From: Ruminococcus sp.
Lineage (GTDB): Bacteria; Bacillota; Clostridia; Oscillospirales; Ruminococcaceae
NCBI GenBank assembly: GCA_031262495.1
Contig: JAISHV010000095.1
Coordinates: forward strand, 1 to 64,000
Reading direction: 5' to 3'
Length of the DNA stretch: 64,000 bases
The notes under the pieces are model-generated. The model made no database searches, was not told where the DNA came from, and saw only the letters and a program-made list of their open reading frames with translations. The translations under genes and the position numbers were made by a program. This document shows, piece by piece, positions 15,831 through 58,501 of the stretch. Every line of letters starts with the position of its first letter. Within the stretch, counting starts at the first letter, position 1.

Positions 15831-16537
15831 ATTCCCTCCGAAATGATTTCCTTTTTACCAAAAATATCCTTGCGTTTCGTCCATACGCCCCATCCGATTA
15901 AAACTCCGCTTGAGAGAAGAACCGAAACGGGGATTTTTACGCTGAATTTTATGTTATATAAGCTGTCTTTCCCCAGATAGTCACAGTTTATTGAAATCTC
16001 TGAAATGAGGATTGACACGTATGTTCGGGCTAAAGCAATGATATTATAGACCAAGGCGTTACAATACCCATAGAGTATCGCCGCCTGATGTGCATCATCG
16101 CCTGCTGCTGTGATATCAATAACCACATTATCGACAACCAAACCGCGAAGCAGCCGTCTCACGCCTTTATGCGTACTGCCGAGAACCACCCGCATTTTTT
16201 CTCTGCCGGTGTCGATTATGTGAATAATCTCTTTGAGACTGCGTTTGGATTTTTGTTCGGGGTCACTTTCGTCGGTTGTTATTGTTTCGGTCTCCTGCCC
16301 GTCGGGTTCGGGTGCGGTTTCGTCGGTAACTGCTGATTTTGCCTTGCGTTTGGATTTTGATTTTGACGGTGATTTAACGCGCTTTTTAGTTCTTTTTCGC
16401 CGAGGGTAGATAATAAAGAACCAGAATTTTACTTCAAACCCTAATTTCCCTTCAATATAGCGCAAATTAAGTTTAACACTGCTTTTCAGTATTATCAAGA
16501 AAAGCAGTAGGATAATACCTAAAATTATATAAAACAA
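15827..16537 (-). CDS. ytfI: YtfI-like membrane protein (DUF2953)
   Basis: The 236-residue protein has one N-terminal membrane helix (FYIILGIILLLFLIILKSS), a central Lys/Arg- and Asp/Glu-rich low-complexity region (about 60-110), and a C-terminal DUF2953-like part. A second hydrophobic segment, VLLSSGVLIGWGVW, lies near the end. It is the usual partner of ytfJ. I suggest the TTG at 16537 as start (AGG upstream); the frame extends to 16642 only through repeat sequence. Its biochemical role is unknown. Confidence 0.7.
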   Translation of the reverse strand: MFYIILGIILLLFLIILKSSVKLNLRYIEGKLGFEVKFWFFIIYPRRKRTKKRVKSPSKSKSKRKAKSAVTDETAPEPDGQETETITTDESDPEQKSKRSLKEIIHIIDTGREKMRVVLGSTHKGVRRLLRGLVVDNVVIDITAAGDDAHQAAILYGYCNALVYNIIALARTYVSILISEISINCDYLGKDSLYNIKFSVKIPVSVLLSSGVLIGWGVWTKRKDIFGKKEIISEGI

Positions 16538-16555
16538 GATAATAACCTTTTCTTT

Positions 16556-16585
16556 TGTAGGGGCGGGCGCCCCCGCCCGCCCGCA
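16556..16585. repeat. TGTAGGGGCG-type repeat upstream of ytfI
   Basis: Begins TGTAGGGGCGGGCG and continues into C-rich sequence, a degenerate short copy of the palindromic family seen at 27.4, 44.7, 45.9, 49.1 and 58.4 kb. Confidence 0.5.
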
Positions 16586-16603
16586 TATCGTCCCGCAAAC
16601 TAT

Positions 16604-16745
16604 CACAATGTCCGTTTGAGATGTCTCGCAGCGTTGCTGCATATGAATGTCGTATGAATGTCTGTGAATGTCCGTTTGAATGTCGGATGAATGTCACGGC
16701 TTCGATGTCGTATGAATGTCGTGAATGTCACGTTTGCATGAACTT
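16604..16745. repeat. Spaced GAATGTC array, copy 2
   Basis: At least seven GAATGTC or close words spaced by 2-8 bases, lying between scpB and ytfI in an otherwise continuous minus-strand operon. It contains the small palindrome GCAGCGTTGCTGC. The last part (CACGTTTGCATGAACTTGTC) is nearly identical to the arm of the palindrome at the window start. Confidence 0.75.
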
Positions 16746-16755
16746 GTCAGGGGAC

Positions 16756-16813
16756 AGGGAGAGAGGGGGCGGCTATTCGAGGTGGCAGGCGTGACGCCGC
16801 CCCCTCTCTCCCT
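16756..16813. repeat. Large GC-rich hairpin, copy 2
   Basis: An 18-bp perfect stem (16756-16773 with 16796-16813) of AGGGAGAG... with ...CTCTCCCT encloses a 22-base loop containing GTGGCAGGC. The same loop and stem base recur at 58.3 kb. The region to 16965 holds further C-rich sequence, the motif CACCCCCTGTGGGAG shared with copy 3, and no gene. Confidence 0.75.
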
Positions 16814-16965
16814 ATCCCCCGCACTAACTTGTTAGTGCTTGACACGTCCCCAACCCTCTCACCCCCTGTGGGAGCGAATACGTGTACTGTCCGGTCTTAC
16901 TCTTGCTTTTAATATATTCACTTACGGCTGCTTCTTAGCTCGTCCGCGATAAGAAAATGTCGATT

Positions 16966-17565
16966 TCAGCTAATATCAAGGGGTTCATTCTCTGTACTCT
17001 GTACTCTGTATTCTGTATTCTGCGTAAGTTCTCCGATTTCCATCTGTTCCGCCTTCCCTGTAGGCACAGGCGGCAGGTCGGCGAGGGACGAGAGACCGAA
17101 TGTTCTTAGGAATACGGCTGTGGTTTTATATGCTATGGGACGACCGGGGACATCGAGCCGTCCTGATTCTTCAAGCAGACCTTTTGCCGTAAGTGTATTA
17201 ACAAGTGATGAACTGTCAACCCCGCGTATGCTTTCGATAAAACCCTTTGAGACAGGCTGATTATAGGCGGCGATTGTAAGCACCTCAAGCGCCGCTGCTG
17301 ACAGAGGCTGACTGCGTTTTGTATCAAAGGCTTTGTGAATGTATGGGTGATATTTTTGTCCGACTGCCAATTGATATTCTGAGCCGAGTTTTAAGACGGT
17401 GAGTGCTGAACCTGTGTCTTCGTAGCGGTCATTCAGTTCGCGTATGAGTTTTTCGGTTAAGTCTGTGTCAAACCCGCAGGCGGCGGCTATCTTTTCAGGC
17501 GAAACAGGGTCGCCCGAAGCAAAAAGCACAGCTTCTACAGCGGATGTTCCTTCGCTTAAATTCAT
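16966..17565 (-). CDS. scpB: Segregation and condensation protein B
   Basis: Winged-helix partner of ScpA and SMC in the bacterial condensin complex, acting in chromosome segregation. The 199-residue protein has tandem winged helices, with VEAVLFASGDPVSPEKIA at the start, the YQLAVGQKYHPYIH wing and LSAAALEVLTIAAYNQPV. The C-terminal 20 residues (TQNTEYRVQSTENEPLDIS) are encoded by a period-7 nucleotide repeat at 16989-17024 and are probably not ancestral. It starts 4 bases after the scpA stop, so the two are coupled. Confidence 0.94.
   Translation of the reverse strand: MNLSEGTSAVEAVLFASGDPVSPEKIAAACGFDTDLTEKLIRELNDRYEDTGSALTVLKLGSEYQLAVGQKYHPYIHKAFDTKRSQPLSAAALEVLTIAAYNQPVSKGFIESIRGVDSSSLVNTLTAKGLLEESGRLDVPGRPIAYKTTAVFLRTFGLSSLADLPPVPTGKAEQMEIGELTQNTEYRVQSTENEPLDIS
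16989..17024. repeat. Heptamer array inside the 3' end of scpB
   Basis: On the minus strand it reads ACAGAAT twice and ACAGAGT twice, plus a partial copy, with exact 7-base spacing. It belongs to the same heptamer family as the intergenic arrays and encodes the ScpB tail. Confidence 0.7.
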
Positions 17566-58197: not shown

Positions 58198-58310
58198 AAA
58201 TGTCTGTGAATGTCCGTTTGAATGTCTGTGAATGTCGCGTTTGAATGTCGGATGAATGTCACTCTGCGATGTCAATATGTATGTCACGTTTGAATGTCAC
58301 GGCTTCGATG
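58198..58310. repeat. Spaced GAATGTC array, copy 3
   Basis: At least six GAATGTC words with variable spacers between the hydrogenase and HATPase genes of one operon. It shares GTTTGAATGTCACGGCTTCG-type phrases with the copy at 16.7 kb. Confidence 0.75.
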
Positions 58311-58318
58311 TCTTGCAG

Positions 58319-58387
58319 GGGGTGAGGGGCGAGGGGGCGGCTATCTATCGTGGCAGGCAAGACGCCGCCCCCTCTCCCCTACACCCC
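58319..58387. repeat. Large GC-rich hairpin, copy 3
   Basis: Arms of about 23 bases (GGGGTGAGGGGCGAGGGGGC with near-complement) enclose the loop CTATCTATCGTGGCAGGCAA. The loop and stem base match the hairpin at 16756-16813. C-rich sequence and CCCCCTGTGGGAG follow, also shared. No gene lies in 58135-58536. Confidence 0.78.
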
Positions 58388-58432
58388 CTGCACCCCCTAC
58401 CCCTCTCCCCCTGTGGGAGTGAATACCTCTTC

Positions 58433-58461
58433 TGTAGGGGCGACCGCCCTCGGTCGCCCGC
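58433..58461. repeat. TGTAGGGGCG-type palindrome
   Basis: TGTAGGGGCGACCGCCCTCG runs into GTCGCCCG. This is the same word set, in another order, as at 49053-49080. Confidence 0.6.
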
Positions 58462-58501
58462 ATATTCTAAACGCTGTGCGGGTTACTGATAAACGCGGTG
58501 T

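Follow-up and report, generated by a model that had tools for sequence, protein, structure and literature searches.

Dispersed, intergenic, high-copy stem-loop repeats are familiar in bacteria as the REP/BIME palindromes, which go with RAYT transposases. Natural repeats capable of forming intrastrand triplexes have also been described, among them the PIT elements of E. coli, Synechocystis and H. influenzae (Hoyne and Maher, as cited in PMC4666352), the ITxF collection, and the motif TM/TMECO (Holder et al. 2015, PMC4666352). In the passages of the latter paper that deal with the E. coli motif, it forms a triplex as an oligonucleotide and becomes a duplex once the complement is added, and protection in vivo was not seen. 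According to the same passages, T can stand opposite A in the pyrimidine motif, the purine motif formed by the complementary strand accepts either A or T at that place as well as G opposite G:C, and the PIT elements of E. coli are cited as having neither promoter nor terminator activity.

The element described here occurs twice in the window, that is, in the whole 64,000-nucleotide stretch of Ruminococcus sp. DNA that was analysed. The initial annotation had reported GAATGTC arrays joined to a large hairpin at 16.6-16.9 kb and 58.2-58.4 kb, and both copies lie where it had placed them. The window contains 22 GAATGTC words where 7.0 would be expected (22 was reached by 0 of 100 shuffles), and the two hairpins fold as single-stranded DNA at -30.0 and -26.6 kcal/mol (z of -6.3 and -6.1; equalled by 0 of 200 shuffles). 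Read 5' to 3' on the plus strand, the element consists of the GAATGTC array, a purine arm (R), a loop, a pyrimidine arm (Y1), a short linker, and a second pyrimidine arm (Y2). In copy 1 the array has seven exact words at 16645-16729, with weaker ATGTC words from near 16604. It is followed by R at 16750-16769 (stem type B, GGGGACAGGGAGAGAGGGGG), the stem top and loop at 16770-16799 (CGGC - TATTCGAG GTGGCAGGC GTGAC - GCCG), Y1 at 16800-16820, which pairs with R by hairpin folding and stem alignment, a linker at 16821-16847, and Y2 at 16848-16866 (CCCCAACCCTCTCACCCCC), the third-strand arm, which is a parallel match to R. In copy 2 six exact words at 58208-58298 precede R at 58318-58337 (type C, GGGGGTGAGGGGCGAGGGGG), the stem top and loop at 58338-58367 (from sequence and folding), Y1 at 58368-58388 (from arm parsing), the linker TGCA at 58389-58392, and the third-strand arm Y2 at 58393-58411 (CCCCCTACCCCTCTCCCCC). 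Only two matched segments had been listed at first; the C-rich sequence preceding CCCCCTGTGGGAG constitutes a third.

By Pfam, copy 1 is adjoined by genes for ScpB and a DUF2953 protein and then YtfJ, and copy 2 by HATPase and Fe-only hydrogenase genes, in agreement with the neighbors originally proposed. At both sites the element lies on the plus strand, and all of these flanking genes lie on the minus strand. Both copies share the loop words GTGGCAGGC / GACGCCGCC and CCCCTGTGGGAG, and their stems differ yet remain paired, as had been claimed. Strict conservation of the loop did not stand, because the loop is of the GGCGGTATTA type in 41 of the 52 further copies; loop conservation holds only within subfamilies. 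Likewise, the two stems are not the whole set, being two of about eight stem types. The contig itself begins with a damaged third site (1-250), where a GAATGTC array passes into a long G-run at CAGGGG and is followed by its own array inverted; apparently sequencing or assembly failed at the purine arm. L105 and L114 have comparable G-runs at this arm, and C-run garbling was seen in L031 and L033; the element seems to be a place where sequencing fails.

The genome assembly comprises 2.08 Mb in 104 contigs. In it a loop pattern of 17 bases (GTGGCAGGC, gap, ACGCCGCC) has 95 copies, 47 and 48 on the two strands, and its reversed control has 0 matches. A covariance model of the hairpin region found at least 146 matches at E <= 0.001, a lower bound obtained by scoring the best 150 of 696 candidates. 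We gathered the 95 pattern copies (30 loci, 63 by place, and 2 in the window) and 52 further copies, and parsed 114; 23 of the 95 unique pattern copies (contig ends) and 8 of the 52 extra copies were left unparsed. The array comprises 3-12 GAATGTC words spaced mostly 9-13 nt apart; next come CAGGGG and R, a purine arm of ~20 nt, then CGGC-loop-GCCG and Y1 pairing with R. The linker is GACA or TGCA in most copies and in others a segment of 27 nt that contains a hairpin (GCACTAAC-TT-GTTAGTGC in copy 1), and Y2 is usually followed by TG. The array is part of the element, because a purine arm follows 101 of the 103 GAATGTC arrays in the genome (96 by pattern and 5 with a GGGAC or inserted variant arm). 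All three arms belong to one type in 97 of the 114 parsed copies, with 7 clear chimeras and 10 copies in which one arm is unclassified.

Several composite arrangements were observed around these copies. A second dispersed palindrome, GTAGGGGCG...CGCCCGCA, often adjoins the element (at 16557-16590 and 58434-58462 of the window and in many flanks), and other common 3' flanks (TTTAGTCTTACTCACCCG..., GCATGGTGGCGGTCT...) also produce composite intergenes. A loop insert of the type TGTGCCGTGTAGCAACGCTACGCC is present in 6 of the 52 further copies (L076, L088, L090, L101, L110 and L114), and a similar hairpin insert (CAGTGTGGCGCTGCGCCACACT) is found in loops of the relative G003. The small hairpin GCACTAAC...GTTAGTGC, which is the linker in some copies, has a relative within the purine arm at L053 (9257-9395), which gives it the look of an inserted unit. 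In L111 an inverted GAATGTC array stands after Y1 in place of Y2, so that two elements are fused head to head. Counted by hand, 38 of the 95 pattern copies are 150 bases or less from a contig end; the repeat is one of the main causes of the assembly's fragmentation.

In several respects the element resembles TM/TMECO and the ITxF collection as these are described in PMC4666352: it is G/C-rich, has three successive arms on one strand, uses purine-motif triads with A or T opposite A:T, and is present in many intergenic copies per genome. Several stems also have in common with the E. coli motif the purine core GGGGAGAGGG, as deduced from a control oligonucleotide published there. The order of the arms differs. 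TMECO belongs to class II (Y-R-R*; PMC4666352), whereas here one strand reads R*-R-Y (class I) and the other R-Y-Y* (class III). The class II order of pyrimidine, purine and third strand is absent: the arms are arranged R-Y1-Y2 or, on the complementary strand, R2'-R1'-Y. Most of the hairpins would also escape the ITxF rule given in that paper (stems of 6-15 nt, loops of 1-6 nt), since their loops range from 4 to about 60 nt (30 nt including the stem top in this genome, about 59 nt in the relative G001); its loop rule is fitted only by the linkers and by a 4-nt TGAC loop in part of a short family found in relatives. PIT elements are likewise natural repeats capable of intrastrand triplexes, but are mostly class II and number 18-25 per genome according to PMC4666352, compared with at least 146 here. 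The sequence Y1-linker-Y2 is an interrupted pyrimidine mirror repeat, as in H-DNA, but the extra R arm would allow one strand to fold alone, so that a supercoiled duplex is not needed. The element is dispersed, intergenic, stem-loop-forming and of high copy number like REP/BIME, and differs from it by the third arm. Upstream arrays, stop-codon adjacency and three-strand covariation are absent from the passages of PMC4666352 on these motifs, and the strings 'covaria' and 'compensatory' occur 0 times in its text. A literature search, with most subscription papers outside its reach, found no report of covariation of triplex arms. In summary, natural intrastrand triplex motifs (PIT, ITxF, TMECO) are known and the same principle and triad code are found here; the opposite arm order, the longer loops, the upstream arrays, the stop-codon adjacency and the covarying arms set the present families apart.

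The earlier suggestion that the paired stems reflect selection on an RNA or DNA structure was put to a test of compensatory changes on more copies, which it passed. In the family of this genome (hereafter the own family) 93.3% of 597 stem cells are paired and double changes are present in 6 of 23 pairs, with slid controls at 64-71%; in the short family of the genus the values are 98.8% of 247 cells and 10 of 17 pairs, with slid controls at 66-77%. Regular mismatches occur near the stem base between R and Y1 of the own family. Across distinct stems we counted 9 G.T and 13 A.C mismatches, both about equally rare. RNA helices tolerate G.U pairs; the fact that G.T is no commoner than A.C therefore favors DNA over RNA.

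The constraint extends past the hairpin to the third arm. Y2 reproduces R with G changed to C and A changed to T or A, without reversal; because it matches R in the same 5' to 3' direction, it is a mirror copy of Y1, and this layout is that of an intrastrand triplex. For type B, R is GGGGACAGGGAGAGAGGGGG and Y2 is CCCCCAACCCTCTCACCCCC; for type D they are GGGGTAAGGGGGAAGGGGG and CCCCCCTCCCCCATCCCCC; and in the GAGG variant of type E, Y2 begins with CCTCC. In three copies the last purine run of R is longer by one base, and in these Y1 has gained one C and the 3' end of Y2 one C (two in one copy). We compared the fit of Y2 to R with that of permuted Y2 arms. In the own family (40 distinct pairs from the 114 parsed copies after length filters) the parallel fit is 0.749 against 0.687 for permuted Y2, a value reached by 0 of 20000 permutations, and since copies within a family are related and the arms are of low complexity, this and the following permutation counts overstate independence and are not probabilities of independent events. 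The antiparallel fit is 0.631 against 0.619, a gain of 0.012 (969 of 20000), and parallel is better than antiparallel in 25 of the pairs, equal in 14 and worse in 1. The short family of the genus (34 distinct pairs, 55 records, after 4 of 59 matches were dropped as one chance match and three cut upstream) has a parallel fit of 0.865 against 0.738 (0 of 20000) and an antiparallel fit of 0.752 against 0.727 (gain 0.025; 31 of 20000). Here the 23 distinct pairs with a consistent hairpin reach 0.937 against 0.760 (0 of 20000), and in the 14 distinct pairs with R-Y1 disagreement the coupling is not significant at fixed register (3044 of 20000; 27 of 20000 at the best offset). A set from Deltaproteobacteria (27 distinct pairs, 42 records, being those of 124 homopurine hairpins with CCC 2-4 nt behind) gave 0.882 against 0.748 in parallel (0 of 20000) and 0.762 against 0.721 in antiparallel (gain 0.041; 1 of 20000). 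As sequence comparisons, these fits show that most of the signal between Y2 and R is carried by the parallel register rather than by composition.

It could be argued that only the R:Y1 hairpin matters and that Y2, a C-rich remnant such as a duplicated arm, owes its similarity to R to composition. C-runs do readily fit G-runs, and Y2 is mismatched or lost in some copies. We consider this reading improbable, since Y2 arms permuted at the same composition fit worse in all three data sets and a duplicated Y1 would give a direct copy rather than a mirror copy; no mutational mechanism that yields mirror copies is known to us. Run lengths in R and Y2 shift jointly, in parallel order. In the short family G7AGAGG goes with C7TCTCC, G6AGAGG with C6TCTCC, G5AG3AGG with C5TCCCTCC, and G4AG5AGG with C4TCCCTCTCC (one mismatch in the last), and in Deltaproteobacteria G3AGAG5 goes with C3TCTC5 and G6AG3 with C6TC3. 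Across the short family R and Y2 match perfectly in 26 of the 55 records, with a single mismatch in 13 and with more than one in 16.

The base rule at the third arm is specific. Opposite G in the short family, Y2 is C in 349 of 363 cases; opposite A (n = 75) it is T in 51, A in 17 and C in 7, and an A in Y2 lies opposite A in 17 of 18 cases (Fisher p 3e-13). In Deltaproteobacteria, where the base opposite A was left free in the pattern, a hand count over the 150 matches listed gave T 84, A 57, G 8 and C 1. These base counts follow the purine-motif triad code (G.G:C, A.A:T or T.A:T), and purine, pyrimidine and third-strand arms lie in register on one strand. Both arms have runs of 3-7 G, 1-5 bases apart, so one may ask whether run lengths are instead selected for a G-quadruplex on the G-rich strand (R2' and R1' together offering four or more G-runs) and an i-motif on the C-rich strand, a competition that passages of Holder et al. 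(PMC4666352) note for the E. coli motif as well. Such structures need neither the mirror order, nor the A-opposite-A register, nor a compensating Watson-Crick Y arm, and the 25 to 1 preference of the own family for parallel over reversed order also speaks against this explanation, to which we give little credence. The alignments thus show R and Y1 as a perfect or near-perfect predicted hairpin with compensatory changes and Y2 as an arm that tracks R base by base in parallel register; a triplex fold is well supported as the predicted structure, and the comparative evidence for its putative arms is unusually strong.

The same R-Y1-Y2 layout, with unrelated loops and flanks, is found in other families from genus relatives and Deltaproteobacteria. 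G001 carries one such family, with the loop of about 59 nt. The short family is common to G001, G003 and G004 and consists of a stem after GTT or GCT, Y1, AAA or AGA, Y2, and usually CGGACTTTAAA. In 47 of 55 records the linker base covaries with the base preceding the stem (TT..AAA 29, CT..AGA 18, against CT..AAA 6 and others 2). G003 also has a short-word array on the 5' side, with GGTAC 38 times upstream and once downstream of 36 copies. A pattern for the short layout matched 22 stretches in a genome collection, from two Ruminococcus MAGs (Hm464_bin53 and Hm464_bin171) and from Desulfovibrio, Desulfarculaceae, Desulfobaccales and other Deltaproteobacteria MAGs; it required the layout, and its matches alone say nothing on covariation. 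Searches of eight of those genomes with the R2 model yielded at least 2-130 matches each, including stems absent from the pattern, and counts from the R1 and R2 models are lower bounds, the best 150 candidates per genome having been scored. In one order of Deltaproteobacteria the exact pattern is present in 19 of 29 genomes, with up to 46 in one genome, and a reversed-order control is far rarer. The exact pattern of one stem type was found in 1 of 197 genomes and misses the own genome, so this figure is no census.

Gene context was derived from the longest open frames, without a gene caller, and is therefore crude. For 84 own-family copies (7 of 91 were dropped as lying inside an ORF call), co-directional neighbors are antisense to the element in 48 cases and sense in 16, with 16 converging and 4 diverging pairs (tandem p 8e-5). 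Among 34 short-family copies 16 are sense, 14 converging, 4 antisense and 0 diverging, and among 24 copies from Deltaproteobacteria 7 are sense, 7 converging, 6 diverging and 4 antisense. Both the own and the short family avoid promoter-type intergenes, but their polarities are opposite, and this speaks against a single RNA polarity. Of 42 short-family copies, 38 stand behind a same-strand gene; R starts a median of 10.5 nt after the stop codon and falls 2-37 nt after it in 37 of those 38 copies.

This placement could also fit a role in RNA, with an mRNA 3'-end hairpin or a pyrimidine-motif RNA triplex stabilizing or terminating transcripts, and pyrimidine-motif triplexes are known in RNA (PMC4666352). 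However, the own-family element is antisense to its co-directional neighbors, G.U-type pairs are not enriched over A.C, and copy 1 has no T-run or terminator-like site. The frequent A opposite A in Y2 misfits the pyrimidine motif, and purine-motif triplexes are reported in passages of PMC4666352 not to form in RNA. We regard the RNA role as very improbable, and RNA-level structure was rejected as the main explanation on the opposite gene orientations of the families and the G.T count; of the two kinds of structure originally left open, DNA is favored on these same grounds. A search for intrinsic terminators (a GC hairpin with an immediate T-run) gave 0 at 16500-17000, where Y2 is C-rich. Rfam gave 0 matches above the gathering threshold at 5 loci of related families, and only sub-threshold miRNA matches at copy 1.

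We consider it probable that each copy encodes an intrastrand DNA triple helix, in an account that also takes the element to be a roadblock or boundary and a selfish repeat. The structure is most likely DNA, of class I on the complementary strand, because A is frequent opposite A in Y2 and G.T is no commoner than A.C. As replication or transcription opens the DNA, the single-stranded complementary strand would fold as R2'-linker-R1'-loop-Y, with R1':Y as the Watson-Crick duplex and R2' antiparallel in its major groove. On the strand shown, a class III pyrimidine motif may be possible, which acid pH would favor. As to function, we tentatively suggest a DNA-level roadblock or boundary behind genes, in a family that may multiply as a selfish repeat by means of a putative mobilizer. 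Mobilization by a RAYT was rejected, as a Y1_Tnp gene was found in 0 of 5 genus genomes (66-93% complete, with positive controls detected). Stalling at the structure may have produced the upstream array of short words as a by-product; alternatively, the array may bind protein. A broader and rather doubtful possibility is that two phyla keep or share a DNA element whose selected function is the triple helix, acting in the short families as a strand-specific stop about 10 nt behind stop codons, with R-Y1-Y2 cassettes swapped whole and word arrays growing on the 5' side.

Whether natural intrastrand triplexes are of importance in living bacteria is a long-open question, as the E. coli motifs fold in vitro and have given no in vivo signal. 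The families described here supply comparative evidence for a third strand, of the kind that proved RNA helices. The many stem variants per genome, in which the three arms vary jointly, provide a set of naturally occurring double and triple mutants for testing, and the placement of the short family right behind stop codons points to a concrete, testable function.
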